Shown here one piece after another: positions 13,894-31,043 of a stretch of DNA of 64,000 nucleotides (the stretch's first letter is position 1; every line of letters begins with the position of its first letter). A program made the position numbers and the translations under genes. The DNA is from a virus. Where the stretch lies: IMG/VR virus record IMGVR_UViG_3300027759_006101, positions 124,001 to 188,000 of that record; one strand, given 5' to 3'. A model generated the notes under the pieces. The model did no database searches. It was not told the origin of the DNA and was given only the letters and a program-made list of their open reading frames with translations.

Positions 13894-14271
13894 ATGTGGT
13901 ATAGGTATTCAATGGTTAGAAGAGTTAGCCTGGTAATATTGTTTGATGATGATAAGGTTTTGCTCGGTAAAAAACCTAGTGGATTTTGGATACCTGGAGG
14001 TCACGCTAACTCTGGCGAATCTTCAAAAGATGCTGCAATAAGAGAACTCAAAGAAGAGACTAATCTTGATTTATCTAATTTAAAATTATTTTATTCTAAG
14101 ATTACTGAAAATAAAATTGTAGATGTTTATGTGTGCAACGAATTTTCTGGAGAATCAAAGGCGGATGATGATTTAGAGGAAGTCCATTGGTTTAGTGTCA
14201 ACGAACTTCCTGAAATGCGATTAGATGGAAATGAATTAATTCAACAAGCTTACAAAGAAATATGTTTGTAA
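13894..14271 (+). CDS. Nudix hydrolase
   Basis: 125 residues. The Nudix box runs from GGHANSGES to AIRELKEETNL (about 34-57) with the full G-x5-E-x7-REL-x-EE pattern; it hydrolyses a nucleoside diphosphate-linked compound. Start MWYRYS is shared in style with the proteins at 15862 and 28708. It overlaps the convergent gene at 14250 by 22 bases. Confidence 0.85.
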   Translation: MWYRYSMVRRVSLVILFDDDKVLLGKKPSGFWIPGGHANSGESSKDAAIRELKEETNLDLSNLKLFYSKITENKIVDVYVCNEFSGESKADDDLEEVHWFSVNELPEMRLDGNELIQQAYKEICL

Positions 14272-15861: not shown

Positions 15862-16947
15862 ATGTGGTATAAATTAGCACAACAATTACAACTTCCTGGG
15901 TTAGATATAGAACAATCCCAGCCAAAAATTAAAGAAAAACCAGAACCAAAAGATAAATCTCCAGAACTTTTAGAAACACAAAAAGAACCTCAAAGTTTAT
16001 TCTTTAGTGATTGGGCTAAAGGTCATTATGTGCCAGAGCAACCTGTCTATCACGGAACAACACACGAATTTGATAGATTCGATATTGACAAAGGTTCAAT
16101 GAGTAATTATTTTGGTCCAGCATTTTATTTTACTAGTGATGAAGAAGATGCTTCAAAAAATTACACTGGTACTGGGCCTGATCAAGAAAGAAACATTGAA
16201 AATCTTCAATATGATTTGCTTGATCAATATGGTGAAGACGAATATTATCTATGGAATTTATATAGCGATGATCCAAGATACAGTAAAGATTTCAATGAAG
16301 ATGGCAAACCATATAACCCAAATTATCTAGCAGAAAAAATTGCCAAAGATACAATTTTAGGACCAAATAAGCCTAGAGTAATTCCTGCTCACGTTAGAAT
16401 GAAAAACCCAATTCATCTGACTAGTTCACAAGATGCAGAACATCCTGAAAAAGTTTTCATTGATGATGTAGAAGGTAGTATGGATTTTTTAGGTAAAAGA
16501 ATCAATCCTTCTGACAACCATAATTTTAGTACAGTTATATCAAAACTTCATAATATTATAGTGGACTATTTGGATTTTGATATTGCTAATGAAATTTGTG
16601 AAGAATTAGTTCAAGAAAATTCTGTTGGGTTTGATGAAGAAATTTCAGCATCTTCAATAATTATGGACTTGATTAAAAAATTAGAGTTTTGGGACCGGGA
16701 TCAAGATACACATTTTAAAGGTGATATTGTCAAAAGATTTGTAAATTCATTAGGATACGATAGCATTGTTATGGATCCTAATGAATTTTTCAGAATGTAC
16801 TCTCAAAAAAGACCAATCAAGCATTTCATCACTTGGAATCCTGAAAACATTAAACACGCCAGAGAAAATATAGAGTTTGACCCAGGGAATCCAGTTATCA
16901 CTGCAATGAGTGGTAAAATTAATTTATGGAAGAATTCTTTGCTGTAG
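15862..16947 (+). CDS. ADP-ribosyltransferase-like protein
   Basis: 361 residues. It starts MWYKLAQ, followed by a Pro/Glu/Lys-rich linker to about residue 50 and then VYHGTTHEF and GPAFYFTSDEEDA, the His-Gly-Thr and Tyr-Phe-Thr strands of ADP-ribosyltransferases. A third catalytic Glu cannot be placed confidently. Phage T4 carries Alt, an ADP-ribosyltransferase packed in the head and injected with DNA; a similar role is possible here but unproven. The MWYKLAQ start ends in the same K-L-A-Q signature as the N-terminal modules of the genes downstream. Confidence 0.6.
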   Translation: MWYKLAQQLQLPGLDIEQSQPKIKEKPEPKDKSPELLETQKEPQSLFFSDWAKGHYVPEQPVYHGTTHEFDRFDIDKGSMSNYFGPAFYFTSDEEDASKNYTGTGPDQERNIENLQYDLLDQYGEDEYYLWNLYSDDPRYSKDFNEDGKPYNPNYLAEKIAKDTILGPNKPRVIPAHVRMKNPIHLTSSQDAEHPEKVFIDDVEGSMDFLGKRINPSDNHNFSTVISKLHNIIVDYLDFDIANEICEELVQENSVGFDEEISASSIIMDLIKKLEFWDRDQDTHFKGDIVKRFVNSLGYDSIVMDPNEFFRMYSQKRPIKHFITWNPENIKHARENIEFDPGNPVITAMSGKINLWKNSLL

Positions 16948-17334: not shown

Positions 17335-17688
17335 ATGAAAAATCATTTGAAATTATTCAAACTTTCACAAAGGCTTGATAAAAATAATTTATATTCACTA
17401 GCTGACAAAATTGATAGATTGGCGCAAAACCAAACTAAAAATTTTGAGAATAAACAGCAAGCTACAGATTATATAAAGAATTTAGGTATGCCAAGCTTTT
17501 CTCAAAATATGGATAAAGCTGCTGATGAAGGCGTTACAATTAATGGTATTTCTATCAAGAACGATCCAGAAATGCAGAAATTATACAAAGATAGTTTATC
17601 ATCAGGAGGCGCAGTTGCAATGCCAGCAATGGCACCAATGCCTATGCCTATGCCAGCACCAATGCCTTCAGTTCCGCCCGTAGTTTAA
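17335..17688 (+). CDS. N-terminal-module protein 1, Met/Pro-rich tail
   Basis: 117 residues. Residues 1-32 are a short version of the shared module (FKLSQRLDKNNLYSLADKI then RLAQ). The middle is a helical segment and the end is a low-complexity tail of repeated Met-Pro and Ala-Pro (AMAPMPMPMPAPMP). TGAGGA ribosome site. Ends in a strong terminator. Confidence 0.65.
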   Translation: MKNHLKLFKLSQRLDKNNLYSLADKIDRLAQNQTKNFENKQQATDYIKNLGMPSFSQNMDKAADEGVTINGISIKNDPEMQKLYKDSLSSGGAVAMPAMAPMPMPMPAPMPSVPPVV

Positions 17689-17705
17689 TTCGCATCCCAA
17701 ACCAA

Positions 17706-17748
17706 AAAAAACAGGGGCTACTTTTTCAAAGCCCCTGTTTTTTTTGGT
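17706..17748. terminator. Intrinsic terminator
   Basis: Ten-bp stem AACAGGGGCT with its complement, flanked by A8 and T8 runs, so it can work both ways. Confidence 0.88.
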
Positions 17749-17764
17749 TATTGGTCTGCTTTAA

Positions 17765-18073
17765 TTACTTCGATAGAGGATCGTTTCGACGGCCACCTTC
17801 ACGACGATCATTAGCTGGAAGAGTTGTCTTTGTTACAAGCTTTAACCCGTCAACACTAAATTGATAAAGAGTGTTGCCAGAAAGAACATAAACAAAATTA
17901 CCAGATGCAGCAACAGAAGCAGCACCACCACCTGCTCTCATCCCAACACCCTGACCAAGAGGGAATGGAGTTTGACCTGGGCGTGGAGCTTCTTGAATTC
18001 CACCTGGAACCTGTGCAAATGCTAGCCCGAAAACAGCCAATGAAGCTGCAAGAGAAACCAAAATTTTATTCAT
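17765..18073 (-). CDS. Small secreted protein, host-like
   Basis: 102 residues with a clear signal peptide ending AFAQ (residues 1-21), then a Gly/Pro-rich region and VYVLSGNTLYQFSVDGLK, a beta-propeller-like strand pair. Secreted proteins with a similar N-terminus and strand pair are common in Armatimonadota (recollection, not a search). It is more GC-rich than its neighbours, which suggests transfer from a host. Confidence 0.6.
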   Translation of the reverse strand: MNKILVSLAASLAVFGLAFAQVPGGIQEAPRPGQTPFPLGQGVGMRAGGGAASVAASGNFVYVLSGNTLYQFSVDGLKLVTKTTLPANDRREGGRRNDPLSK

Positions 18074-18150
18074 AATTTTTACCTCTGTTCAATAGACGAA
18101 CAATGTTATTATATGTTCAATAAATGAGTAAAAGATTAAGATAGATCTAT

Positions 18151-18187
18151 AACAAAAAAAAGATCTACTTTCGTAGATCTTTTTTAG
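18151..18187. terminator. Bidirectional terminator
   Basis: Stem AAAGATCTAC with its complement around TTTC, flanked by A7 and T6 runs. It serves the prepilin-like gene. Confidence 0.85.
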
Positions 18188-18189
18188 AA

Positions 18190-19086
18190 TTATCTTACTT
18201 GAAATCCGTTTTGATCAAGTACTGGAAGATTGCCAGCAGTATATACTTGTTTACCCCAGAGGAAATTATTTGGATTTACTGTGGTTTCAAATCTCATAAA
18301 CTTTGAGTGGCCATCTGCAAAAGTATAATTTGCGCCACCTGTATGTCTGTCAGCTTGAATGTATGCAATTTGTAAAGCACCACCAGCATATCCAGATGAT
18401 TTGCAAGTAGCCCAGGCACTTGCAGCCAAAGATGGAGTGACTGCATAAACTGCTGACAGACTTGGCGCAAACTGTGATAAATCTTCACCCTTCCAAGTTC
18501 CGCCACTCACACTAGTCATAAATGCATTAGTACTTCTGTGGCTCTTGTTTACATAACCACCAGAAGAAGTACCAGCATTAGAAGTGTCATTAATACAAGC
18601 TAATGTATTTGTCATCTCTGCTACTACAATTGTATCTGCTGCAAACTCAATAGCTGAAACAGAAGCAACATTAGCAGGATCAATGCTTCTACGCTTTCTT
18701 GGTAATACGGAAGCATTAGCAACATAAGAAATTCTTGGTGCTTGTAAATCTAAACCTGGGTTAGTAGGAACAATTCCCTTATTTGGATCTGATGGACAAA
18801 CAAATACTGACCAATTCTTTACGTATGGATTAATAAGTCCTGACCATTGATTATATCCATTAGTACCGTTGGAATCATTTGTATACCAGTATGCTTGTGG
18901 ATAAGTTTCATCATAGTCTTGAGCATACATAGTAATACCAAGTCCCATTTGCTTGGTGTTTGAAAGGCAGGATGCAGAACGAGCCTTTTCACGAGCTTGG
19001 GCAAAAACAGGGAAGAGAATTGCAGCCAAAATAGCGATGATTGCAATGACAACGAGTAATTCAATAAGAGTAAACGCTTTTTTCAT
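18190..19086 (-). CDS. Type IV prepilin-like protein with DUF1559-type C-terminus
   Basis: 298 residues. The N-terminus has the class III prepilin signal [17 protein letters not shown] with the Glu-5 of the mature protein, continuing [17 protein letters not shown]. The C-terminus has [15 protein letters not shown], an H-x9-DG signature. These proteins form pseudopilin or surface assemblies in Armatimonadota, Planctomycetes and relatives; the [12 protein letters not shown] form is especially typical of Armatimonadota. It is out of place in a phage and suggests host gene capture. GC content is higher than in flanking genes. Confidence 0.85.
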
Positions 19087-19208
19087 ATTAGTTTCCTTTT
19101 AGAAATCTTGTTATTATTATTCCGCTTAATAAAAAGACGTATATTAAGGTTTTAGACAAAATTCTTAACATAAAGGAACAGTCTTCTTTTATTCCCTATA
19201 ATAAAAAT

Positions 19209-19694
19209 ATGAATTACAAAATCAAACTCAAACAAAAAAAATATTTGTTCTTAGATATTGATGGAGTATTGAATTCATTTGATGATTATAATATGACAGG
19301 TAATGAATTCATAAAAAACTTAAAGAATATTTCATTTATTACTAGCAAAAAACAAATGTCTATATTGAATAACATAGTAGAAGAATATAATCCCACAATA
19401 ATATTATCATCATACTGGAGAACAAGATATTCTTTAGAAGAATTGAATAATATATTTAGGGAAAATGGTTTTGTGGGCAAGATATCTGGAATTACTAGCA
19501 AAGAGGGCGAAGAACACAAAGATAGGTGGAATCAAATCAAACTATATATAGATAAAAATAAAGTTAAAGATTATATTATATTAGATGATGAAGAAATAAC
19601 CAGAACAGAGAGAAAAATAAATAACTTTGTAAAAACAAATTCTTATGAAGGTTTGACAGAAAAACATTTAAAAGATATAGGAAAAATCTGGTAG
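19209..19694 (+). CDS. HAD-like phosphatase (RNA-repair-associated type)
   Basis: 161 residues. HAD motif I FLDIDGVLNSFDDY (about 15-28) and later IILSSYWRT and YIILDDEE motifs match the HAD domain found in Swiss-army-knife RNA repair proteins. It could remove a terminal phosphate from RNA or DNA. TATAAT lies six bases before the ATG with no ribosome site, so it is probably leaderless. The ART-like gene follows after six bases. Confidence 0.7.
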   Translation: MNYKIKLKQKKYLFLDIDGVLNSFDDYNMTGNEFIKNLKNISFITSKKQMSILNNIVEEYNPTIILSSYWRTRYSLEELNNIFRENGFVGKISGITSKEGEEHKDRWNQIKLYIDKNKVKDYIILDDEEITRTERKINNFVKTNSYEGLTEKHLKDIGKIW

Positions 19695-19700
19695 GACAAT

Positions 19701-21011
19701 ATGGCAAAATTTATTCGTGCAAGTAAAAAATTTATCAAGATATCTCAGAGTGAAGAAAAATATTATCATGGCACAACTACTGGTGAAAATGATTCAATTC
19801 TTAAAAGTATTATATCTTCAGGCATAGACCCAAAAATTGCACAAGGATTTGGGCAAGGAGCTGGGTTTTATGTTTTCAATAGCATAAATCAAGCTAAAAG
19901 GCAAGCTATGTCACTTAATAGTTTCTTTAGTGGCAGTGAAGTAACATTTGAATATGTGGGAAACCCAGATACTATACCAGGTGGATATCCAATGGTGGTT
20001 TCACTTCCAGTTGATTTAAAATCAGAAACATTTGATTTAGATTATGAGTCATTGCCACGATTTGGATTTTTTATAATAAGAGAAATGTACGACTTGATAA
20101 AAACTTTGCCGCAAGATGCTTTTGCTGAATTGGATCTTTTGGGAAATAGGCCCTCCGCAATACCGGAGCACACTACTATAGATTCTTCTTTATTAGGCGA
20201 TGGTGAAATAATAAGATTGAGGTCAAAACCAAAACCTATTCAAAAACAAAAACGCACACGTAAACAAAAAATAGCATTTTATGTCAAAGACACGCTAAAA
20301 GAATATGAGACTGGAGATGTCGGAACTGGTTATACTTATCATAAAATTTTAGAAGTTCTTAAAAAATATTTTCCAGAGGAATTCAAGAAAGCAGAAGAAA
20401 AAGTTTTTGAAATTTTAAAACCTCTTGAAAATTATGATTATAAATCAGACCATCCCGATGTGGATTGGAAATATGGGACTCAACCTGTAGCTTTTAAATA
20501 TAACGGAAAATACAATATTCATATCGACCCAGCTTTAGACATTATGGTTTACTTTAACAATAATTGGATAAGTGGTCAAGAATATATGCAGCAAAAGGAT
20601 TCTACTAACAATACTGAAAATAGCACATCAGATTCTCAGAACACAAAGACATCAAGGAATAAAAATATGGCAAAATTTATCAAGACAGCATTATTAGAAG
20701 TAAGAGAAAGAACTGAACAGCAAGAAGTTCAATTAGAAGAAGTAAGAACTGGTGAAACATATACTTCTCTTTATGACGCATTACAGAAACAACATAAAAC
20801 TGTAGATGCTCAGACACTTTGTGAACTCTTTACTCCTCTCCATAAAAATACAAACTACAATTCATTAGAAGAAGCTTTAGGTAATAAGGCGGGTTTGTAT
20901 GGTAGAAAAAACGAAGAATTAGCAGAAAAATCATTCTCAGAAATATTAGAAGAAATTGAAAAAGGTTTCCCAGAAGAAATTCTTGAGTTACAATTAAGAA
21001 ATAAGAAATAA
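19701..21011 (+). CDS. ADP-ribosyltransferase-like protein with duplicated start segment
   Basis: 436 residues. It begins MAKFIRASKKFIKISQ, then YYHGTTTGENDSI and GAGFYVFNS, the His-Gly-Thr and aromatic strands of the ART fold. Residues about 170-290 are an unrecognised domain, followed by a Ser/Thr/Asn linker. A second start-like segment MAKFIKTALLEV opens an acidic helical C-terminal region (about 320-436). The repeat suggests that two genes with the same start segment were fused. Confidence 0.6.
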   Translation: MAKFIRASKKFIKISQSEEKYYHGTTTGENDSILKSIISSGIDPKIAQGFGQGAGFYVFNSINQAKRQAMSLNSFFSGSEVTFEYVGNPDTIPGGYPMVVSLPVDLKSETFDLDYESLPRFGFFIIREMYDLIKTLPQDAFAELDLLGNRPSAIPEHTTIDSSLLGDGEIIRLRSKPKPIQKQKRTRKQKIAFYVKDTLKEYETGDVGTGYTYHKILEVLKKYFPEEFKKAEEKVFEILKPLENYDYKSDHPDVDWKYGTQPVAFKYNGKYNIHIDPALDIMVYFNNNWISGQEYMQQKDSTNNTENSTSDSQNTKTSRNKNMAKFIKTALLEVRERTEQQEVQLEEVRTGETYTSLYDALQKQHKTVDAQTLCELFTPLHKNTNYNSLEEALGNKAGLYGRKNEELAEKSFSEILEEIEKGFPEEILELQLRNKK

Positions 21012-21071
21012 TTGGATTTATAGCTAATAGACAAAACTATTAGCTATAATAAATTTAACAGGTGTAATAAG

Positions 21072-21233
21072 ATGAAAAATAAACTTTCAAAAGAACAACT
21101 TGATCTTTTAAATAAATTTAAAAACACAAAAGATAATAAAAGCGCTGCAAACTTAAATGAAAAAACTGAATCAAAAATTAATTCAGTTTCTCATAGACCA
21201 AACTTAAGAAGAAGCGGATCAAGGGGTAAGTGA
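21072..21233 (+). CDS. Small basic protein
   Basis: 53 residues, Lys/Asn/Ser-rich, ending in Arg/Gly (RRSGSRGK). It lacks hydrophobic segments; perhaps a nucleic-acid-binding micro-protein. It overlaps the convergent gene at 21219 by 15 bases. Confidence 0.45.
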   Translation: MKNKLSKEQLDLLNKFKNTKDNKSAANLNEKTESKINSVSHRPNLRRSGSRGK

Positions 21234-21464
21234 CGGACTCCAATCTGGGCCTGCCAATACTTCCAAGAATTCTTCATAAGTGTAATACTGAGTTTTAGTA
21301 GTTAATGATTCAACACAGTTAGGTACAACTTGCCCCTGCCACTTTACAAATGTCTTTAATCCATCAACACTTAAACGCAAAGTGTCAGCAGATGTTTCAA
21401 GTACTTGTGTAAAATCAATCAAGGGTATTTCTGTAACGTGAAAAATAACAAATGTTCTGTCCAT
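21219..21464 (-). CDS. Hypothetical protein
   Basis: 81 residues from the ATG at 21464, chosen because TATAAT lies six bases before it (leaderless type). The sequence is beta-rich (VIFHVTEIPLIDF, TLRLSVDGLKTFVKW) and soluble. Not recognised. Confidence 0.6.
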   Translation of the reverse strand: MDRTFVIFHVTEIPLIDFTQVLETSADTLRLSVDGLKTFVKWQGQVVPNCVESLTTKTQYYTYEEFLEVLAGPDWSPSLTP

Positions 21465-21535
21465 ATTTTTATTATAAAACAAAAGGTAGGGTTAGTTCCT
21501 TCTTTGAATAAAAAAGAATGTTCGGGGACCAAATT

Positions 21536-22588
21536 ATGCATAAAAAAATAGTACTTAATAAATTGCAGAAAATTGCAAACTTATTTGATCAATGTCAACA
21601 TCACAATCAAGCAGACCAAATAACTCAAATAATGCATAAAATAGCGCAAATTGGTAGCGCTGGAATTTACAAGCCAAAAGGAAGCTCATTCCTAAGCTCA
21701 CAACCTGACTTGGCAATTATTGAAAGCAAAAATAATATTCCAAATGATTTATTATATTACGCCGCATCAGTAACACAAAGAACTAAAACCCCAAAATATG
21801 ATCAAGAAAATTTTGAAAAAACATTAGCAAAATTAAATTCTATTAAAAATAATCCTAAAGTAAAAGATAATTTTCCAAATATTTCAAGCAGTGTAGATTC
21901 TGCTATTGATTTGTTGAATTCAAAATCAAATCAATCTGGTGAAACTAAAACTAAAAGCACATATATAGAAAGATTACCTAGTTCAAAATTAGGAGACTAT
22001 GCTTCTCCAGCTGATACAACTTTTAAAACTCAAGATACTCCATTTGATGATTTAGGACAATTTTTAGATCCATATCAAAATCCGCTTTTGCAAATGGGCG
22101 GTGGTTTTGGCGATATTGTAGGCAATGATCCAGAAGATAAAGCAAAAGACTTTATAAAAAATAAATTTAATCAAGCAAGCTCAAAATCTAAAAGACAAGC
22201 CTCAATACTAATGATGGCTATAAAATTAAAAGAAGATTTAGAAGATGGAGTCAAAGCTTTATTTAATTATTATGATGAAAGAACTTTGATGAAATTATTA
22301 AAAGAATCAAATATTATAGAACAAAATGGTGATATTACAGCAAGACCATTTGATTATTCTGAACTTATTCAAAAATTATCACAGTTAGAACCAACTTCTC
22401 CGCCAGATATGCAAACAACTTCTGGAAATAATAGTTATGGCAGTCTGGAAGAAGTCAAACAAAATTTATTATCTACAGTAGAAACTATCGATAAATTTCA
22501 AGTGTCTATATCACACGCACACGATGTTCAAAGAGAACAACAAAGAGAATTAAATGATTTACAGGGTGATACTATTCCCGACGAATGA
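21536..22588 (+). CDS. N-terminal-module protein 2
   Basis: 350 residues from the ATG at 21536, which aligns with the starts of its relatives and has GGGGAC upstream. Residues 1-40 are a diverged module (KLQKIANLFD ... QADQITQIM ... KIAQ). The rest contains a Ser/Thr-rich linker and a helical domain (about 210-290) of unknown function. No membrane segment. Confidence 0.65.
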   Translation: MHKKIVLNKLQKIANLFDQCQHHNQADQITQIMHKIAQIGSAGIYKPKGSSFLSSQPDLAIIESKNNIPNDLLYYAASVTQRTKTPKYDQENFEKTLAKLNSIKNNPKVKDNFPNISSSVDSAIDLLNSKSNQSGETKTKSTYIERLPSSKLGDYASPADTTFKTQDTPFDDLGQFLDPYQNPLLQMGGGFGDIVGNDPEDKAKDFIKNKFNQASSKSKRQASILMMAIKLKEDLEDGVKALFNYYDERTLMKLLKESNIIEQNGDITARPFDYSELIQKLSQLEPTSPPDMQTTSGNNSYGSLEEVKQNLLSTVETIDKFQVSISHAHDVQREQQRELNDLQGDTIPDE

Positions 22589-22801
22589 AACAAATCTACA
22601 ACAACTTATTACTAAGAAAATAAATAAACTGTAAAGAGCTATAGCAATCCTATAGCTCTTTCTTTTTTCCCAATTATATTTGTGTAAATAATATCCACTT
22701 GTCCACATCAACATAGCATACAAAAACCACTGGATTATAGTCTCACTATCAAAAGCCCAAAAAAAATAAAAACATAGTTGAATAAAAAATACAATTCTCA
22801 C
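22559..22801 (-). CDS. Possible three-helix membrane protein
   Basis: 80 residues with a GTG start; a TATAAT box lies a few bases upstream. Hydrophobic helices at about 3-20, 23-40 and 53-68. It reads through the terminator of the convergent gene, so the ORF may be fortuitous. Weakly supported. Confidence 0.35.
   Translation of the reverse strand: MRIVFFIQLCFYFFWAFDSETIIQWFLYAMLMWTSGYYLHKYNWEKRKSYRIAIALYSLFIFLVISCCRFVSFVGNSITL
22631..22668 (+). terminator. Intrinsic terminator after module protein 2
   Basis: Twelve-bp stem AAAGAGCTATAG with its complement, loop of five bases, then a C and six T. Confidence 0.85.
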
Positions 22802-22875
22802 AAGCTTATTATAAAAGGATAATTATCGATATATTTGTAAAAATAAATTAATCACCTTTGATAAGGAAAAAAAAT

Positions 22876-23784
22876 ATGAACAATAAACAAATTGTAGCTT
22901 CACTAAATCAAATTGCTAATGAACTTGATAGCAATGGACTTTATCAAGAAGCTAATGTTGTTACCAATGTTATGGTAAAAATTAGTCAATCTGACTTACA
23001 ATATTCTGGTTCTTCGAAGTATAAGCCGTATGCTAATTTAAGTCCTCAAAGTGTTAATGTCGGCAACGCTGCAGGAAGCACTGCGGGTTCATCAACGACT
23101 GATGAACAAACTTTCAATCAGGCTATTGAACATATAAAAACGCTTTTAAATATGGGCGAAAAAGAAGGAGCAAAAAGTATATTTTTCGATACTCTTGAAA
23201 AACTTACAGAACCTGCTCAACGTGAAAAGTTTAGAAATACGTACTATGAATTAACAGCTCCTTCAGCTTCTCCAAATGCACCAGTCACTAAGCCAAATGC
23301 ACCATCTACTCCAATTGGTACACCTAAGCCATCAGTGCCAGGTAAACCATCCCAGCCAAGTTCCAAACCTGGTATGCCATCCAACCCTGGTAGCTCAAAG
23401 CCTTCAGCACCAAAAAGCGCAGATGGGTTAGACAGATGGGTAAATAAAGCTGAAAATATTTATTCAGCTTGGGTAACAAAAGGGGCAAAGCCAGGTTCAT
23501 CAGCATTTGGATTGATCAAAGATGTTGTAGACTATATGCAAAATGTTAAATCAAGATTGCCATCATCTTTGCATAGCTCTGCAAATGCAAAAATAATCAA
23601 AGTACAAAAAATGATGCAAGATATATTTGATGGAATGCCAGACCCAACTAAGACTGTTGGAGTAATGCCTTATTATGGTGTAAGTGGAGTTAAGGGCAAA
23701 AGTGTTAATCCTTTTGCAGAGGGCGATCGTCTAGAAGGTAAAAAGCTAGATTATCAAGCCGACTACGAAAGTAAAAGATACTAA
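22876..23784 (+). CDS. N-terminal-module protein 3, Pro-rich linker
   Basis: 302 residues from the ATG at 22876 (AAGGA upstream). Residues 1-39 are the shared module (SLNQIANELDSNGLYQEAN ... KISQ). A long Pro/Ser/Lys linker (about 130-185, repeats such as KPSAP and KPSQP) separates a helical domain from a second helical domain (190-265). The architecture is that of a modular, flexible protein. Not recognised. Confidence 0.7.
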   Translation: MNNKQIVASLNQIANELDSNGLYQEANVVTNVMVKISQSDLQYSGSSKYKPYANLSPQSVNVGNAAGSTAGSSTTDEQTFNQAIEHIKTLLNMGEKEGAKSIFFDTLEKLTEPAQREKFRNTYYELTAPSASPNAPVTKPNAPSTPIGTPKPSVPGKPSQPSSKPGMPSNPGSSKPSAPKSADGLDRWVNKAENIYSAWVTKGAKPGSSAFGLIKDVVDYMQNVKSRLPSSLHSSANAKIIKVQKMMQDIFDGMPDPTKTVGVMPYYGVSGVKGKSVNPFAEGDRLEGKKLDYQADYESKRY

Positions 23785-23785
23785 T

Positions 23786-23818
23786 AAAAAAAGAGGAGCA
23801 AAGCTCCTCTTTTTTTAT
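23786..23818. terminator. Bidirectional terminator
   Basis: Stem AAAGAGGAGC with its complement, loop of AAA, flanked by A and T runs. Confidence 0.88.
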
Positions 23819-23829
23819 TTAAAATCAAA

Positions 23830-24243
23830 TTATAATAAAATTAATTTTTCAGCTCTAATTGTAAAGTATCTACTTAATAATTTTCCATTTTTAATTGAAC
23901 GTACAACTACAAAATCTTTTTCATCTGATACAAAATCATCACAAACTACGCCAAACTCTTCCTCGCCTTTTCCATCAATCCATTTTACTTTGGTGCCAAC
24001 AGTAAATTTTTTCTCTTCAACTAAACTCCAAACTTTGCTCAACTCTTCTACCTGCTCATCTGTCAATAATCTTAACTCGTTCAATTTATCCAACAAGTTT
24101 GATTGACTAACTTTGTAATTTGTTATCTGAGTGTCCAAATTATCATTAAGTTTTATTAACATTTTTCTATCATTATTTTGCTTCCATATGATAAAAAATA
24201 AAACCAAATTTATTAACACAGACAATACTAAAAAATAAATCAT
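23830..24243 (-). CDS. Membrane-anchored coiled-coil protein
   Basis: 137 residues: one N-terminal membrane helix (about 3-20), a coiled coil (about 25-75) with a heptad pattern rich in Leu, and a C-terminal beta domain (about 80-137). The layout is reminiscent of phage spanin or Rz-like components, but no such relation was shown. Overlaps the end of the next gene by four bases. Confidence 0.6.
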   Translation of the reverse strand: MIYFLVLSVLINLVLFFIIWKQNNDRKMLIKLNDNLDTQITNYKVSQSNLLDKLNELRLLTDEQVEELSKVWSLVEEKKFTVGTKVKWIDGKGEEEFGVVCDDFVSDEKDFVVVRSIKNGKLLSRYFTIRAEKLILL

Positions 24244-24482
24244 TTTTTTGCACCTTTTGATTGCTTGAAATTTTTAGCAAACTTTATCATTTCATTTACT
24301 TTTTGCTTACTATAAATTTCAGAGCCATAATTCTTCATCATTACATCAACTGTTTTAGAAAAATCTTTTGCCTTTGTTGATGAAGAATAAAAACTTTTTG
24401 CATCGCCGTGACAAGTCTTGCAATAATTATTATAGTCAATCTTAGAATCTAATAATATCAAAAAATAAATAATATTAATCAT
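24240..24482 (-). CDS. Minimal c-type cytochrome-like protein
   Basis: 80 residues. A short hydrophobic N-terminus (MINIIYFLILLDSK) could be an export signal. The haem-attachment motif CKTCHG is at about residues 21-26, followed by a Lys-rich helix with a candidate distal ligand in VDVMMKNYG (about 47-55), as in small class I cytochromes. If exported, it would need host cytochrome maturation. A single motif in a short protein could also be fortuitous. It overlaps both neighbours by four bases, so it is cotranscribed with them. Confidence 0.5.
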   Translation of the reverse strand: MINIIYFLILLDSKIDYNNYCKTCHGDAKSFYSSSTKAKDFSKTVDVMMKNYGSEIYSKQKVNEMIKFAKNFKQSKGAKK

Positions 24483-25069
24483 ATTACTTCTCTCAAAACC
24501 TCATATATCAATTCCCAATTTTCTTTTCTTGTAGAATCACTCTTTGCATTGTTGAATATCTCTATAACCTTTCCATCATATTTTGCAGTTATATAAGTAT
24601 TGTTGTCAAATAAGCCATCTAACAAATTAAACTTTGTTTCATCATTACAGATAAAACCAACATAACCAATTACTTCGTATCTTCCAGAACAAATATCCCT
24701 AAATTCTTCATACAAAAATGGTAATTCCCAATTTGGGTCATAAAGATAATATTTGTTGCTGTTTTCGCAGTTATTCAACCATAAACCAGTAGTCCTAATT
24801 TTCTTCTGATCAGATAATAAATTTTTCCAAGCTTTCTTGCAAAAATTAAATGTCCTAGTATGACCCTCACAACTAGGTAATGTTTTAAAACCATTTTTAT
24901 TTAAGAAATTCACAATCTTGCTTATTGCCGGATCTAATGTTTCATCGAGTTCAGTAAAATTATAGTCAGAAATTACTCTTTCTTTATAATAGTACCAGTA
25001 ATTATGATCTTCACTGTAAAACCAATCATAATTTTTCAATTTATCAACAGTAATAGGATTTATTCTCAT
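24479..25069 (-). CDS. Hypothetical protein with PSCEGH motif
   Basis: 196 residues. The FLNKNGFKTLPSCEGH segment occurs in several uncharacterised bacterial and phage proteins; the Cys and His may bind a metal. The protein is soluble and Tyr/Trp-rich. First gene of a three-gene overlapping operon. Confidence 0.6.
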   Translation of the reverse strand: MRINPITVDKLKNYDWFYSEDHNYWYYYKERVISDYNFTELDETLDPAISKIVNFLNKNGFKTLPSCEGHTRTFNFCKKAWKNLLSDQKKIRTTGLWLNNCENSNKYYLYDPNWELPFLYEEFRDICSGRYEVIGYVGFICNDETKFNLLDGLFDNNTYITAKYDGKVIEIFNNAKSDSTRKENWELIYEVLREVI

Positions 25070-25151
25070 AATATATTTTTACTCATAACAAAACAAGATT
25101 CCTAAAAGGACCTTAAGAGAAATAGATAAAATAATAAATATGGAGTAAATT

Positions 25152-25934
25152 ATGAACAAAAGACAAATAGTAACAGCATTAAGTAATATTGCTAACACTC
25201 TTGACAATAATCGCCTTTATCCAGAAGCTAATATTCTTACCAAAGTAATGAATAAATTAGCACAAGAAGATTCAAAACCAGAATATGATTATACTAAAGA
25301 AAGACTATATAATACTTTATCTGATTTTGGTAAAGAGTATGTAGCAGATAGAAATAGGGAAAATCCTATTACATCTTATAAGGAATTTGATGCTGCTATT
25401 TATCATGCTTTTCAATCACCTAATCCAAGAATAAGTGAAATGATGTTCCTAAGCCCATTTGAACAAAGCCAAAATGTTTTCACACAAATAAATCCAGATG
25501 TCTCAGAACTACTAAGAGGTATGTTTATGATTGACAGAGGGATTGACAATGATAAAACATTCCAAAGCTTCAAAGGTTCTATATATCCTGCACTAAAGAA
25601 AAAAATGCAAGAAAGACCAAGCACTGAAACTCTTGATTTGACCACTGGAATTGTACCTTTTGGAAGAAAAACAACTAATAAAAGTAATGAATATCATAAA
25701 CTTTTGAGAAGAGCAAAATCATTACTCAAAAAAGCTGCTGGTGAATATTGGAATCAATCTGGCGCACAATCTTCTATGGACAATTTACTCCGATACATTA
25801 TAGATGATAGTTATAATTCAGAATATAGAGATGAAGCTTATAGTATCATGGAAGAAGCGCAAAGATTACATGATCAATTAAAATCAGATGAAGCTAATAT
25901 GCCAAAATATACAATAGATGTACCAAAATTTTAA
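25152..25934 (+). CDS. N-terminal-module protein 4
   Basis: 260 residues. The shared module occupies residues 1-37 (ALSNIANTLDNNRLYPEAN ... KLAQ). The remainder is an unrecognised helical domain. TGGAG ribosome site. The next module gene starts before this gene ends if its upstream start is used, but the better start lies ten bases downstream. Confidence 0.7.
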   Translation: MNKRQIVTALSNIANTLDNNRLYPEANILTKVMNKLAQEDSKPEYDYTKERLYNTLSDFGKEYVADRNRENPITSYKEFDAAIYHAFQSPNPRISEMMFLSPFEQSQNVFTQINPDVSELLRGMFMIDRGIDNDKTFQSFKGSIYPALKKKMQERPSTETLDLTTGIVPFGRKTTNKSNEYHKLLRRAKSLLKKAAGEYWNQSGAQSSMDNLLRYIIDDSYNSEYRDEAYSIMEEAQRLHDQLKSDEANMPKYTIDVPKF

Positions 25935-25944
25935 GGAAAAAATA

Positions 25945-26415
25945 ATGAATAAAAGACAAATTATAGCGTCCCTCAACAAGATTGCTAATGAACTCGACAC
26001 AGCAAAGCTTTACACAGAAGCAAACACAGTAACCAAAGTTATGTCCAAGATCGCTATGGACGGAAACGATGAATATGGCAGTATGGAAGATATGGGTTAT
26101 TGCCCAGAATGCGAAGAATTCACTCTAATAGACGGAAAATGTGAACAATGCGGTCATGGCGAAGATGAAGATTATCCAAACCGTAATCTTACAAATAGAT
26201 TAGATGAAATTAGCAGTATGATGGATATGCATGGAAATCATCCTGCTGACAAACTTCGTGAAGATTACTCCAAAGATTATAATAACCCAACATTTTCAGA
26301 AATGAAAGATGTGTTCAGAGATTTAGATGAATTAGTTGTAGAAAATATGACGATGAATAGAGAACAAAGAAAAAGATACGAAGAAATTAAAAAGCAAATA
26401 ATGAATGCTTTTTGA
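25945..26415 (+). CDS. N-terminal-module protein 5 with zinc ribbon
   Basis: 156 residues from the ATG at 25945 (AAGGA upstream). Module at 1-38 (SLNKIANELDTAKLYTEAN ... KIAM). A CPECEEFTLIDGKCEQCG zinc ribbon (about 50-67) follows, then an acidic helical tail. The ribbon could bind nucleic acid or act structurally. Confidence 0.7.
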   Translation: MNKRQIIASLNKIANELDTAKLYTEANTVTKVMSKIAMDGNDEYGSMEDMGYCPECEEFTLIDGKCEQCGHGEDEDYPNRNLTNRLDEISSMMDMHGNHPADKLREDYSKDYNNPTFSEMKDVFRDLDELVVENMTMNREQRKRYEEIKKQIMNAF

Positions 26416-26479
26416 TAATTTGAACTACTAAAATAAGTGGCAATAACATTTTGTCACTTATTTTTTTAAGGAAAATAAA

Positions 26480-26956
26480 ATGAATAAAAAATACATACTT
26501 ACATCACTATATAAAATAGCTAATACACTTGACAATGATGGTCTCTACAAAGAAGCTAACACAGTAACTAAAATTATGTCCAGATTAGCCATCGATGAAA
26601 ATGATGAATATAATACAGAAGATTATTTTCCATATGGCGATCCAGACGAAGATCCAGACGAATTCTTAAACGAAGACGAAGATGAAAGAGACGATTGCTG
26701 TCCAAAATGTGGTAATTGCGACGAAAGAGAAGGCAGCACAATAGTTATGGAAAGATTTAGCAATGGAGAAATTCATTATTGTTCTAAAGGATCCTGTGAC
26801 TATAATTATTGGAGTGATGCAGAAGAAGGCGTAAAACCTCCAATTTGCCCTATCTGCAAAGGAAGAGACTTCTTATTTGACGATTACTCCAACCCTCTCG
26901 CTCAATTTGAATGCGAATCTTGCTCAACAGTATTTGTTGACGGATCTGAGGCTTAG
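26480..26956 (+). CDS. N-terminal-module protein 6 with double zinc ribbon
   Basis: 158 residues. Module at 1-38 (SLYKIANTLDNDGLYKEAN ... RLAI), an acidic stretch (about 41-72), then two Cys-rich units: CCPKCGNC ... CSKGSC and CPICKGRDF ... CESC. AAGGA ribosome site. The next gene begins two bases after its stop. Confidence 0.7.
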   Translation: MNKKYILTSLYKIANTLDNDGLYKEANTVTKIMSRLAIDENDEYNTEDYFPYGDPDEDPDEFLNEDEDERDDCCPKCGNCDEREGSTIVMERFSNGEIHYCSKGSCDYNYWSDAEEGVKPPICPICKGRDFLFDDYSNPLAQFECESCSTVFVDGSEA

Positions 26957-26958
26957 AA

Positions 26959-27291
26959 ATGAACAAGAAACAAATTGTTGCATCATTGAACAATATTGCT
27001 AACGTTTTAGATAATACAGGATTATATAAAGAAGCTAACACAATAACTGAAATTATGTCCAGGTTAGCTATGGACAAAAACGATGAATACAATACAGAAG
27101 ATTATGGTTATTGTCCTGATTGCGGCGATTGGATTGGAGATTATGATTATTGCATAGAATGCGATTGGAACGTTGAAAAAGATGACGATGGACCAGATTT
27201 TGGTGATATAGATTTTTATGATTTTATAGACGAAGATTTTGGTGAAGAAGAAACGCCAACAAAATATACACCTGAAAAACCTGGAAAATAA
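26959..27291 (+). CDS. N-terminal-module protein 7 with zinc ribbon
   Basis: 110 residues. Module at 1-38 (SLNNIANVLDNTGLYKEAN ... RLAM), then YCPDCGDWIGDYDYCIECDW (about 48-67) with two Cys pairs, then a strongly acidic tail. The arrangement matches its neighbour at 25945 and suggests duplication. Confidence 0.7.
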   Translation: MNKKQIVASLNNIANVLDNTGLYKEANTITEIMSRLAMDKNDEYNTEDYGYCPDCGDWIGDYDYCIECDWNVEKDDDGPDFGDIDFYDFIDEDFGEEETPTKYTPEKPGK

Positions 27292-27293
27292 AA

Positions 27294-27650
27294 ATGAATA
27301 AAAGACAAATTATCGCATCCTTAAATGAAATTGCTAACCAATTAGATATTTCGAATTTGCACTCTGAAGCTAATACTATAACCAAAGTTATGGTAAAATT
27401 AGCCGAAGAGGAAAAAATGAAAACCAAACACTCAGAAGAAGAACTCCAAGAAGCAATGTCCGAACAAGGCATTGAAAAAGCATTCGAAACTTATAAAGAA
27501 AAAGGTGGAAGCGCAAGCAAAGAATCATACTCATCACAATGGAAATCACTCATAGGAAGAATGATTGATGGATTCACAAACAATATGGGCGTTTCAATTG
27601 CTGAAGAAAAATATAAAAGAAAAAATCCATTCTGGGATCCAAGAGACTAA
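27294..27650 (+). CDS. N-terminal-module protein 8
   Basis: 118 residues. Module at 1-38 (SLNEIANQLDISNLHSEAN ... KLAE), followed by an acidic helix and a basic C-terminal region. Two bases after the preceding stop; last gene of the run before the terminator. Confidence 0.7.
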   Translation: MNKRQIIASLNEIANQLDISNLHSEANTITKVMVKLAEEEKMKTKHSEEELQEAMSEQGIEKAFETYKEKGGSASKESYSSQWKSLIGRMIDGFTNNMGVSIAEEKYKRKNPFWDPRD

Positions 27651-27654
27651 TTAA

Positions 27655-27682
27655 AAAGAGGAGCTTTGCTCCTCTTTTTTTA
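27655..27682. terminator. Bidirectional terminator
   Basis: Stem AAAGAGGAGC with its complement and T7. Nearly identical to the terminator at 23786. Confidence 0.85.
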
Positions 27683-28708
27683 TCCCAATTTTTTCCTAGT
27701 TTGATCACTAGCTACCTTTATGTGAGCAAGCCAATCTAACATATGACCTAAAGCTACAGATGCTTTTAAACAATTCATTTGCAAAGTTCCTGAATTACTC
27801 ATCAAATGGTTAAAACTATCATAAAATGTTTTACTTATTCTTCTGCCACGTAATACACCAGAAACATCGTGGGGATCTTCATATACTAAATCAACTAACT
27901 CAACAATATCTTGAGGCTTTATACGCTCTCTATAATACTTAAGAGCATTATCCCTGATTTGTTCATGAGTTAAATCTTCATTCTTTCTCATCAATTCAAT
28001 TACATATTTATGTAAATCTCTAATCTTAGGATTCTTTTCAAATAAGAATTCTAAAGATGGATTTATAACTCTTTTCTTAATAACTTTCAACCCAGACTTA
28101 TCTTCTTCGTCTCCAGATTCCTCAAATAAATACTTGGCAATCGGCGCACCATAAAAATATGCCATAAAAGTCCACTTATTATCTATATCTAAACCTGCAA
28201 ACTCTTTCAATCCCTTTGCTAGAGTATTGAAAATCATTACAGAATTTGCAATAAAACCATACAACCCATCAATTTTTCTAATACCACTAATAAACTCTTC
28301 AACACGCTCACGAGGATCTTCTATAACCTTTACTTTATTGCACAAACTTATAAAATTTTTAGTGTCCTCAATTACCCAATTAGCACTAGTAAAACGCAAT
28401 AAAATAAAATTAATCCACTTCAACGTATGACCCTGCTCAATTGTTCCCAAAATACCCTCAAGAGCAGGTACAACTTCCCCAATAATTAATAACAACTTTT
28501 CAGCATAATCTACTATAAATGGAGAATCAGGATCTAAACCACCAAATTGCAAAACATTATCAATCTCATCTCTATCTTCGTGAAATTTTGTAACCGATTT
28601 ATGAAGAGGGCGATCAGTGAGAGGTTTTGAATCAACGCCCTCCACAGATGTTTCTACCGGACTAAAACCTTTCAAATTAGATAAATCAATAGCTTCTCTA
28701 TACCACAT
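27680..28708 (-). CDS. Hypothetical protein, MWY start
   Basis: 342 residues, helical, no recognised domain. Its start MWYREAIDLSN resembles the starts at 13894 and 15862. TATTAT lies six bases before the ATG with no ribosome site, a leaderless arrangement. Confidence 0.6.
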   Translation of the reverse strand: MWYREAIDLSNLKGFSPVETSVEGVDSKPLTDRPLHKSVTKFHEDRDEIDNVLQFGGLDPDSPFIVDYAEKLLLIIGEVVPALEGILGTIEQGHTLKWINFILLRFTSANWVIEDTKNFISLCNKVKVIEDPRERVEEFISGIRKIDGLYGFIANSVMIFNTLAKGLKEFAGLDIDNKWTFMAYFYGAPIAKYLFEESGDEEDKSGLKVIKKRVINPSLEFLFEKNPKIRDLHKYVIELMRKNEDLTHEQIRDNALKYYRERIKPQDIVELVDLVYEDPHDVSGVLRGRRISKTFYDSFNHLMSNSGTLQMNCLKASVALGHMLDWLAHIKVASDQTRKKLG

Positions 28709-29245
28709 ACATATATAATACTAGAAAACAATCAGTCTCCCCTAAACTCTGATAAAAGTCTGACAAACATAAAAGTAACAGAGATTATAAAACCTTTGTC
28801 AGAAACTTTATCAGAAATAAGGCCCAAAAACTATATACTAATTACAGGGCAAAAAGGATGGTTATTCTCAGGGGAAAACGGAAAAAATTAACCACCCCCC
28901 CCTACTCTTCTGGGCCAAATTTAGGGGAGAAAAATAAATATATATAATAGGGCAAAAAGGATGTCTAATATTTTGGGCAAAGGGATTTCTTTTACCACCC
29001 CCCCCCACACTCCCACCAAAAATTAGGGGTAAGAATATTCCTACAAAAATTTATATATATAATAGGGCAAAAAGGATGGTTATATCTGGGGGAAAACTGT
29101 TTTTCTTACCACCCCCCCTATGTTTCCCAAAATATAGCCCACGATTTGTTCGCATATGGCCTTTTTTTTGACGGGGGGAGCGGGAACCCAACGATTATTC
29201 TAACATACCCCCCCCACCAGCTAAATAGTAAAGGAGAGAGTAGTC
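28709..29245. repeat. Gene-free stretch with three ~110-bp repeats
   Basis: Copies begin at 28846, 28949 and 29064 with AGGGCAAAAAGGATG, each preceded by a TATACT or TATAAT box and followed 45-50 bases later by a run of seven to nine C (28895-28902, 28998-29006, 29112-29118). A fourth C run is at 29208-29215 and a G6 run at 29173-29178. No ORF is supported. It lies where the genome changes style, so an origin, a terminus or packaging site, or tandem promoters are candidates. Confidence 0.75.
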
Positions 29246-29605
29246 TTATAAACAATAACGAACAAGTGCTTCACTCATACATACTAAACTCAAAGCAGCA
29301 AGACTAGTATACTTATCATCTCTAACTATAGGATGGTCTAAGTAACAGACATCTTCTCTATACTTGGTCTTCCATATGAACAAGGCTACTTCTCTCTCAA
29401 CAATGATAATAGTACCTAATTGTCTATCAGGTAATTCTATTACACTATCATAGCGTATAGGGTTAAACTGTATACCATCTTTGACCACAGGTTCTGATTT
29501 AGTAGCTTTTAGCTTACACGATAAACCATAGGGCATAATAGTTTCCCATTTGCCATCTATCATCAACGCTACAACATGATCCGTCTTATTTATTATCTTT
29601 GCCAT
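29246..29605 (-). CDS. Phage-associated small protein
   Basis: 119 residues from MAKIINKTDH at 29605 (GGAAG upstream). The layout (N-terminal INKTDHVVALMIDG, middle TIIIVEREVALFIW, then HPIVRDD) resembles a widespread phage family of unknown function; this is recollection only. It is the first gene of the right half. Confidence 0.6.
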   Translation of the reverse strand: MAKIINKTDHVVALMIDGKWETIMPYGLSCKLKATKSEPVVKDGIQFNPIRYDSVIELPDRQLGTIIIVEREVALFIWKTKYREDVCYLDHPIVRDDKYTSLAALSLVCMSEALVRYCL

Positions 29606-29664
29606 TCTTCCAAGCCATATACCAAAATACAAACAGCCACATAATCAAACATACAAATAATACG

Positions 29665-29943
29665 TTAGTTACAATGATTAGTAAAGAGTTCATAGGATCC
29701 ACCTGTTTGCTTGTTCGCTATATCAATCATTTCATCCCAACTGGCTGTATATCCTATCATTCCCGACAACGCTGTAGACACTGTTTCATAACTACGTCCG
29801 ATCTTTTCACTTACAAAAACAGCTAACCGTCCATTATTAGTTGTTTTAGCATGTTTACCAGTTAATGGATTAACATATAACCATACGTCAGAGATCATAT
29901 TATCATAATCTACAGGGTACAATTCTGGATCTGCATTGTTCAT
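29665..29943 (-). CDS. Hypothetical protein
   Basis: 92 residues from the ATG at 29943; TTTATA lies six bases upstream (leaderless type). The sequence contains a helical bundle-like middle (SYETVSTALSGMIGYTASW). Divergent from the gene at 29997, with a shared promoter region. Confidence 0.55.
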   Translation of the reverse strand: MNNADPELYPVDYDNMISDVWLYVNPLTGKHAKTTNNGRLAVFVSEKIGRSYETVSTALSGMIGYTASWDEMIDIANKQTGGSYELFTNHCN

Positions 29944-29962
29944 ATATCTTTTATAAAATATC

Positions 29963-29990
29963 TTGACATGTATATACAATATGATATAAT
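29963..29990 (+). promoter_or_regulatory. Promoter, leaderless type
   Basis: TTGACA, 16 bases, TATAAT, then six bases to the ATG at 29997. Confidence 0.75.
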
Positions 29991-29996
29991 ACTTGT

Positions 29997-30197
29997 ATGG
30001 AAAACACTACAATCTCCCAATTCGTAAGCGACAACGTAGAAGGCGATCCAGCATTCAAAGGATACGTTGTCAGTGAGTTGAAGGATCTGGTAAAACAGAA
30101 TCCTACAATGTCACTTTCAGAGTTGCTTCAGGATGCAACGGAATCTGCCCTAGAACAATGGGATACAGACCAATATACAGACTACTACCAAGAGTAG
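29997..30197 (+). CDS. Hypothetical acidic protein, MENTT start
   Basis: 66 residues, acidic and helical. The first 14 bases of the gene (ATGGAAAACACTAC) recur at the starts of the genes at 31044 and 40824, although the proteins differ afterwards. Leaderless promoter. Ends in a CCTTGACA-stem terminator. Confidence 0.65.
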   Translation: MENTTISQFVSDNVEGDPAFKGYVVSELKDLVKQNPTMSLSELLQDATESALEQWDTDQYTDYYQE

Positions 30198-30203
30198 TCT
30201 GTA

Positions 30204-30232
30204 CACAGCCCTTGACATTTGTCAAGGGCTTT
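30204..30232 (+). terminator. Terminator, CCTTGACA type
   Basis: Stem AGCCCTTGACA with its complement around TTT, then a T-rich tract. The same CTTGAC/GTCAAG core recurs at 30842, 31523, 35087 and 41203. Confidence 0.75.
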
Positions 30233-30262
30233 ATTATTTATTTTTTTATGCAAAGTGTTTAT

Positions 30263-30284
30263 AGGAATGGTAAATACCATTCCT
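30263..30284 (+). repeat. Transcription-unit-end hairpin
   Basis: Left arm AGGAATGGTA. TTTGTCAAAT follows about ten bases later, on the plus strand, so it belongs to the gene at 29997. Confidence 0.75.
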
Positions 30285-30342
30285 GAAAAAATTTGTCAAA
30301 TAAATTTTTTTACTTGACAAGATATTGGATATGTGGTAAGAC

Positions 30343-30531
30343 CTACATCTCCATTGCTTTTGCTTTTGCTCTTTCTTTGGCAGTTTGTGATTCTGCAAGT
30401 ATACGGTCTGCTTCAGCAAGGGTAAACTGATTCTTGACGCTGTTTTTAAGCATCCTATGCAGAATCTCCACATATGCTTTCTGCATTCCAACTTCCATGG
30501 CGAGTTCTGTGATGTGTTTCATTTCGTTCAT
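30343..30531 (-). CDS. Hypothetical helical protein
   Basis: 62 residues, one long charged helix pattern rich in Ala/Glu/Lys (AEADRILAESQTAKERAKAKA). The start at 30531 was chosen because TATATT ends six bases before it. Not recognised. Confidence 0.55.
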   Translation of the reverse strand: MNEMKHITELAMEVGMQKAYVEILHRMLKNSVKNQFTLAEADRILAESQTAKERAKAKAMEM

Positions 30532-30537
30532 GTACAT

Positions 30538-30566
30538 AATATATCACTTTGTATATATTATTGCAA
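30538..30566 (-). promoter_or_regulatory. Promoter, leaderless type
   Basis: Minus strand TTGCAA, 17 bases, TATATT, six bases, ATG at 30531. Confidence 0.6.
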
Positions 30567-30602
30567 GGCTTATTTAGTTAATAGATCATACATAAATAAG
30601 TA

Positions 30603-30631
30603 TTGCAAAAGTGCATATTGTGCTGTAATAT
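30603..30631 (+). promoter_or_regulatory. Promoter, leaderless type
   Basis: TTGCAA, 17 bases, TAATAT, six bases, ATG at 30638. The same -10 and six-base gap (ATAGAC) occur before 31044. Confidence 0.7.
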
Positions 30632-30637
30632 ATAGAC

Positions 30638-30832
30638 ATGAACAAAGATACAAAAGTAGAACTAGAGTTTTCCACCAATCGTTTCTGGGAACTCTCCATG
30701 TCCGACCTTGGTTATACCGAAGGTATGACAGAAGAAGAATTCAATGCAAAGATTGCAGACTTCATCAACTCTGACGACTTTGAAACCAGGTACATACCTG
30801 AAACCAATGAACTGAAAGTCTACGCAGAGTAG
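30638..30832 (+). CDS. Hypothetical protein
   Basis: 64 residues, acidic, alpha/beta. Not recognised. Its own promoter and terminator make it a single-gene unit. Confidence 0.6.
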   Translation: MNKDTKVELEFSTNRFWELSMSDLGYTEGMTEEEFNAKIADFINSDDFETRYIPETNELKVYAE

Positions 30833-30841
30833 ACTTATCAT

Positions 30842-30872
30842 ATCTCTTGACGAAAGTCAAGAGATATTTATT
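30842..30872 (+). terminator. Terminator, CTTGAC type
   Basis: Stem TATCTCTTGAC with its complement around GAAA, then a T-rich tract. Confidence 0.7.
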
Positions 30873-30898
30873 TAATTTATTTTTTGTTGTTTATCTTT

Positions 30899-30920
30899 AG
30901 GCACGGTAAATACCGTGCCT
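30899..30920 (+). repeat. Transcription-unit-end hairpin
   Basis: Left arm AGGCACGGTA. TTTTGTCAAATTTATTT follows on the plus strand, so it belongs to the gene at 30638. Confidence 0.75.
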
Positions 30921-31008
30921 ATAAAATTTTGTCAAATTTATTTTTACTACCACAGTCCAGACCCGTTGTCAAGAAAATAATTGTTTTTAGTTAATAACTA
31001 AATAAGTA

Positions 31009-31037
31009 TTGCAATGTGATATAACTTGCTGTAATAT
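31009..31037 (+). promoter_or_regulatory. Promoter, leaderless type
   Basis: TTGCAA, 17 bases, TAATAT, six bases (ATAGAC), ATG at 31044. Confidence 0.7.
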
Positions 31038-31043
31038 ATAGAC

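Follow-up and report, generated by a model that had tools for sequence, protein, structure and literature searches.

Two exchangeable terminal tags on unrelated proteins of a jumbo phage related to Bacillus phage G are candidate signals for loading cargo into the head

The virus record IMGVR_UViG_3300027759_006101, here called G000, comprises 358,269 bases of a jumbo phage, and the stretch of 64,000 nucleotides from base 124,001 to base 188,000 of this record is here called the window. The major capsid protein (MCP) of G000 is 47.5% identical to the MCP of Bacillus phage G, and by this sequence similarity its source is a jumbo phage related to phage G. Eight genes of the window encode proteins that share a terminal helical module, and another set of G000 proteins begins with a short peptide of the form MWY[KR]x[AS]. 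Both tags end in [KR]-x-[AS], and 37 G000 proteins of at least 110 residues bear one of the two. These tags are probably capsid-targeting signals, by which cargo proteins would be packaged in the head and then cleaved by the prohead protease.

Results

A module shared by proteins with unrelated bodies

A sequence-only reading of the window had claimed that eight genes share an N-terminal module on unrelated C-terminal parts. Translation of all eight bears this out, and the bodies do differ from gene to gene. The modules are present in every case, but not equally alike: the protein encoded at 17335 has a divergent, shorter variant, in which the [KR]-[IL]-[AS]-x end falls on codons 28–31, as compared with codons 35–38 in the other seven. 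The set had been placed within 17335–27650. All eight listed genes are indeed members, but the family reaches well beyond this interval, since an iterated protein profile, run over G000, gives 23 module proteins in the whole record, 8 of them within the window and 21 with the module at the N-terminus. A search of phage proteomes with the module had been proposed as a check, and when the profile is taken on to five related jumbo-phage records, the six phages together have 81 modules, while reversed proteins scored at the same threshold have 0. No match to the module was found in the INPHARED phage collection, and the eight window proteins have no accepted match in Pfam or PHROGs.

Two properties of the data set affect how these and later numbers are read. 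Calling of open reading frames (ORFs) followed a simple longest-ORF rule, and a few start codons may therefore be wrong; in three window genes the start lies downstream of that of the longest ORF, at 21536 and not 21518, at 22876 and not 22858, and at 25945 and not 25918. Counts across genomes are not independent, because these phages are related by descent and share ancestry, and the counts of head motifs in six genomes include homologous copies.

Among six of the window modules, identity by codon position is 0.68 in the first, 0.81 in the second and 0.48 in the third, which means that third positions differ most, and the DNA upstream of these six genes is unrelated. The likeness of the modules is conservation at the level of protein. 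A shared cassette of promoter or ribosome-binding site was considered as the source of the alike starts and is ruled out, since the codons vary and the upstream DNA is unrelated.

The module is confidently predicted to be a two-helix hairpin. In an AlphaFold2 model from a 32-sequence alignment the helices span residues 3–20 and 23–42, and the predicted local distance difference test (pLDDT) has a mean of 89, with 98 in the core and a fall to 55 in the last block. The conserved [KR]-[LI]-[AS]-x is placed by the model at the end of helix 2, directly before a flexible tail. A Foldseek search with the hairpin gave generic hairpins only, none at E <= 0.001, the fold being too small for an informative search.

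A second, short tag

About 14 further G000 proteins begin with MWY[RKS], and 12 fit MWY[KR]x[AS], where shuffled N-termini give an expectation of 0.0. Starts of this form number 10, 10, 7, 4 and 2 in the related phages. The K/R and Tyr codons of the tagged genes vary and their upstream DNA is unrelated, from which it follows that the MWY start is a peptide signal, and not a copied expression cassette.

The spelling of the short tag seems to vary with lineage. In phage G, MKRLI[KR]K[AS]-like starts are seen on about 16 proteins, ADP-ribosyltransferases (ARTs) included, and in the more distant G008 there are 13 proteins that start with MK[ILF][IVM][KR]x[AS], compared with 0.3 expected. This is the more tentative part of the analysis, because such starts are lysine-rich. 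A broad pattern, M.{0,5}[KR]x[AS][SQ], shows no clear enrichment in phage G, G008, G003 or G001, and for these four phages only the more specific short-tag patterns therefore serve as evidence.

The prohead protease and its putative site

The head genes of G000 include those for TerL, the portal, a head maturation protease (phrog_18299, 3.7e-20) and the MCP (phrog_2522, 4.8e-68). The genome had been suggested as a place to look for a prohead protease, and both the profile match and the gene order portal–protease–MCP identify the encoded maturation protease as one. It is fused to a long scaffold-like extension (1,379 residues). All 43 aligned homologues of the protease keep its likely catalytic His, and 40 of the 43 keep the Ser of an SMG motif; a search of the PDB with the sequence of the protease domain gave no match.

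A de novo search for four-residue patterns was made, without using the tags, over the head-operon proteins minus their first 50 residues. RxAS ranks first, RxAQ third, and KxAS and KxAQ both come within the top 18, whereas in the remaining proteome none of the four ranks among the top patterns. No motif ending in Glu is among the top patterns of the head operon. The T4-type cut after (L/I)-x-E, which the sequence-only reading had mentioned, is not used: the tags end in [KR]-x-[AS], and the motif of the head operon is [KR]xA[SQ].

When each genome is taken separately, the enrichment of [KR]xA[SQ] in the head operon over the rest has p values from 9e-5 to 3e-14. Among 56 distinct homologues of the protease, the majority of them from IMG/VR and the majority fusions, the motif has 548 sites against 111 expected, and a site occurs within the 80 residues before the protease domain in 30 of 43 homologues, where 3.8 would be expected. 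Self-processing and digestion of the scaffold would be expected to go with such a concentration of sites in the protease fusions. After the N-terminal module a strict site is present in 34 of 70 cases, as against 1.8% of control windows taken from these proteins.

Placement and exchange of the tags

A module gene lies near the terminase in G000 (at 56369) and also in G003, G004, G005 and G006, and in G001 a module protein adjoins head genes. The gene directly before the portal begins with MWY[KR] in all of the 15 distinct loci with that stretch available, and its body is strongly diverged. In ten proteins the module is C-terminal, and for 7 of these 10 there is an xxAS no more than about 22 residues upstream, compared with an expectation of 10%; this places the candidate site again between tag and body. 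Judged from these positions, the site tends to sit between tag and body in either orientation.

The same body may have one tag, the other, or none. The family of the G000 protein at 77485 bears the module C-terminally in G000 and G005, and has an MWY start in G004; the G000 protein at 229228 bears the module, and its G005 homologue bears MWY; a GH108 lysozyme has the module in G003 and G004, and its homologue in G005 is untagged; bodies of the type encoded at 221840 are untagged in G000 and G005, and have the module in G003. Swaps and losses of this kind on homologous bodies fit the idea that the tags are interchangeable labels.

Tagged bodies and ADP-ribosyltransferases

Recognisable tagged bodies include ART-PolyVal, NUDIX, NUDIX with HAD_SAK_2, LysM, PcfJ, GH108, DnaJ and PolyA_pol-HD; most tagged bodies have no accepted match in Pfam or PHROGs. 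ART-like proteins were identified by the motif [YF]H[GT][TS]. The three of G000, the two of G003 and the one of G006 all start with the MWY tag or with another start that ends in [KR]x[AS], and so do, with a KxA or KxS end, 4 of the 5 effector-like ARTs of phage G. The KptA-like protein of phage G, which we take to be a tRNA-modifying type of enzyme, has no tag start. Two ART-like proteins of phage G, gp233 (JN638751.1 163172–163849, minus strand) and gp251 (178671–179204, minus strand), are annotated without function; both are encoded by minus-strand genes among plus-strand neighbours, and both have KxAS close to their starts.

Discussion

Proposed mechanism

What the sequences show is that there are tags, that these are shared and how they are placed, that a site motif is concentrated in head proteins, and what fold is predicted; from this we infer docking, cleavage with its exact scissile bond, packaging and injection, as follows. 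The module and the MWY[KR]x[AS] peptide would be two alternative cargo-loading tags. During assembly of the prohead, a tag would dock its protein onto the inner core, where the partner is probably the long scaffold-like extension of the protease or a neighbouring acidic scaffold-like protein. Once active, the His/Ser protease would cut at [KR]-x-A|(S/Q/x) and remove the tag, so that untagged bodies (ARTs, NUDIX, LysM, PcfJ-like, zinc-ribbon and many of unknown type) would remain in the mature head. These bodies could then enter the host with the DNA, and there start the takeover or counter defences.

The sequence-only reading had proposed a capsid-targeting role for the module, and its proposal is strengthened: a protease is encoded, the end motif of the tags is enriched in the head operon and in the protease fusion and not in the rest, tagged genes are found repeatedly in the head operon, and four phages have tags on nearly all of their effector-like ARTs. 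A more general reading has somewhat better than even support, namely that the tags constitute an exchangeable cargo-loading code in a large and mostly uncultured clade of phage-G-related jumbo phages. There would be two non-homologous detachable tags, one a hairpin at either end of the protein and one a peptide of about 7 residues with lineage-specific spellings, both ending in the protease motif, and tens of effectors per genome would be loaded by them into the head.

The proteins injected early by jumbo phages are largely unknown, and their identification normally needs purified virions. If the tags do load cargo in this way, a candidate injected proteome can be read directly from sequence, and the candidates of uncultured jumbo phages, at least 37 proteins in the present case, can be listed without a virion in hand. 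The candidate set would then include ADP-ribosyltransferases together with many unknown families that probably act on transcription, translation or defence of the host, and the packaging tags and the protease motif would be distinct from those of T4. The reading also gives a concrete and quickly testable prediction in the cultured relative Bacillus phage G.

Several observations weigh against capsid targeting by these tags. The hairpin module was not found in phage G, the nearest cultured relative; an ART-like ORF of that phage, 402412, starts without a tag; and the MKRLIKK[AS] starts that it has, being rich in lysine, could in part be an effect of composition. A strict site is lacking after half of the N-terminal modules, and in the window the ends KIAM, RLAI, RLAM and KLAE, on four of the eight modules, require a looser P1'. 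The AS sites of the C-terminal modules are mostly preceded by Met or other residues, with no K/R at P3, and derive from three protein families only. Some tagged proteins, such as the one with PolyA_pol-HD, are not obvious injected effectors. Finally, homologous copies are contained in the head-motif counts from six genomes, a concern that is lessened by the tests per genome and by the 56 divergent proteases.

Alternative explanations

It is possible, if rather doubtful, that the tagged proteins are directed to the prohead mainly as structural core or internal proteins that give the large head its shape or fill it, and not as injected effectors. Tagged genes in the head operon and very large tagged proteins without enzymatic match would suit such a role, and SPN3US is described as packing many internal proteins of unknown function (PMC10052503). 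Bodies of the ART, NUDIX, DnaJ and GH108 types, as well as a variable, strain-specific gene content, suit effectors better, and for a packaged ART there is a precedent in Alt of T4 (PMC9958956). The hairpin may instead be a TPR-like docking or oligomerisation module of non-virion proteins in the infected cell, in which case the [KR]xA likeness to head proteins would be incidental. The weak similarity to TPR hairpins (TPR_10 at 0.035 in Pfam and kinesin light chain TPR at 0.012 in the PDB, both below significance) points in this direction, as does the position of many window proteins in a region of short non-structural genes. Yet there is no significant TPR profile match, and a single hairpin is present rather than multiple repeats. 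This explanation, which is unlikely, also fails to account for an end motif that the module has in common with the protease fusion and with the MWY tag, to which it is unrelated, for module genes in the head operon, and for N- or C-terminal placement with the site on the side of the body.

Loading of effectors is known from contractile injection systems, and one tagged protein has LysM domains, which could mean that the tags load the tail or another compartment of the virion, with cleavage unrelated. The enrichment of the motif in the head operon and the protease fusion, and the conserved tagged genes beside the portal and near the terminase, speak for the head, and make loading of the tail quite improbable. 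Ordinary paralogy, in which one small gene is tandemly duplicated and the C-termini diverge, might be suspected from four window genes that are nearly contiguous and have modules 55–76% identical. Such an origin can hardly be reconciled with 81 copies that are spread across six genomes, sit on unrelated bodies at both termini and are exchanged with a non-homologous tag, and is given very little credence.

Tagged genes and other features of the window

The eight module genes are all on the plus strand. The gene at 17335..17688, with the divergent short module, encodes a Pro/Met-rich C-terminus and has the candidate site RLAQ at 17416–17427. Those at 21536..22588 (350 residues; candidate site KIAQ, 21638–21649), 22876..23784 (302 residues with a Pro-rich linker; candidate site KISQ, 22978–22989) and 25152..25934 (260 residues with a helical body; candidate site KLAQ, 25254–25265) follow. 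Three shorter proteins have zinc-ribbon-like patterns: 25945..26415 (156 residues, CxxC; KIAM at 26047–26058), whose G005 orthologue is 72% identical, 26480..26956 (158 residues, CxxC in more than one pattern; RLAI at 26582–26593) and 26959..27291 (110 residues; RLAM at 27061–27072), for which the hairpin is modelled with high confidence. The last, at 27294..27650, has 118 residues and KLAE at 27396–27407.

The short tag occurs as MWYKLAQ (15862–15882) on the ART-PolyVal protein encoded at 15862..16947, plus strand (PF18760, 2.7e-10), whose 41.6 bits exceed the curated cut-off of 31.2 and make it a member of the family; as MWYRYSM (13894–13914) on a NUDIX protein at 13894..14271, plus strand (PF00293, 1.5e-17); and as MWYREAI (28688–28708) on a protein of 342 residues at 27680..28708, minus strand, with a tagged homologue in G006. 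The sequence-only reading had named two ART-like proteins with shorter starts. That at 15862 is confirmed by its family; the other, at 19701..21011 on the plus strand, is ART-like by its YYHGTT motif only and has no Pfam hit. It starts with MAKFIRASKKFIKISQ and has a second in-frame copy, MAKFIKTA, at 20667. Two in-frame tag copies in one ORF are thus seen in this gene (MAKFI[RK]) and also at bases 88921–90456 of G000 (M[DN]K[FL]QKL[SA]Q), which suggests that each is a fusion of two tagged proteins; the protease might separate them by cutting.

Armatimonadota genomes were tried as a non-virion source of the module and rejected, 11 of 12 being without it and the twelfth having it in a phage-like head operon. 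In the Armatimonadetes metagenome-assembled genome SZAS-3, a 1.36-Mb contig (G030:C5) contains, at bases 143001–163000, the head operon of a related jumbo phage, in which modules and an MWY-tagged gene occur; it may represent an integrated jumbo prophage or a chimera of the assembly. The window has a pseudopilin-like gene (18190–19086, minus strand) with its best cellular relatives in Armatimonadota, at 46–51% identity, adjoined by a gene for a second small secreted-looking protein (17765–18073, minus strand), and a gene that resembles the pseudopilin-like one adjoins the MCP gene of G004 (147447–148430). The relatives of the pseudopilin-like gene suggest an Armatimonadota host, and perhaps a pilin carried by the phage. 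Two small proteins, at 8345–8575 and 8673–8903 of the window, have an N-terminal membrane-like stretch and alike C-termini, K-K-x-x-A-I-E-R-M-M-S. Outside the window, a cluster of sugar-nucleotide/epimerase-like and thiamine-enzyme-like genes, read by eye at bases 23000–38000 of G000, suggests metabolism of surface glycans.

Comparison with known systems

The hairpin resembles a single TPR-like hairpin in its two antiparallel helices and its G-x-Y-x-x-A turn, and differs from TPR proteins by having one terminal repeat only. In the protease of Bacillus phage G (Donellivirus), KxAS sites lie at the end and KTAA/KIAP ahead of the domain, like the sites in the G000 fusion; unlike G000, phage G has a different short-tag sequence, and its protease is not fused to a long extension.

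The jumbo phages SPN3US and phiKZ have extensive proteolytic maturation of the head, and identical N-termini are described on the diverged paralogues gp53 and gp54 (PMC5694885). Their propeptides, mostly of 111–254 residues with nine substrates in SPN3US, have several sites each (PMC10052503) and are cut at A-x-E (AxE in the case of SPN3US) or other Glu motifs, in contrast to the candidate [KR]xA site of the G000 tags. Within the available text of these sources, no interchangeable module on many unrelated bodies is reported for either phage.

In T4, the capsid-targeting sequence (CTS) of 10–20 residues is carried by IPI, IPII, IPIII and Alt and is removed by gp21 (PMC9958956, PMC5694885), and the proteases of T4, phiKZ and SPN3US all cut after Glu (PMC9958956, PMC5694885, PMC10052503). 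The comparison with the T4 CTS is one of function, and no relationship of sequence is claimed. As in T4, a terminal peptide is shared by several unrelated proteins, an ADP-ribosyltransferase included, the phage encodes a prohead protease with catalytic His and Ser, and the tags are apparently removed by the phage's own protease. In contrast to T4, the site is [KR]xA and not after Glu, the module has about 38 residues, is folded and also occurs at the C-terminus, and at least 37 proteins are tagged. The MWY tag has about 7 residues. The tags of G000 would work like the T4 CTS but are not T4 CTS by strict membership, because the site differs and because one of the tags is a folded hairpin that is usable at either end of a protein.

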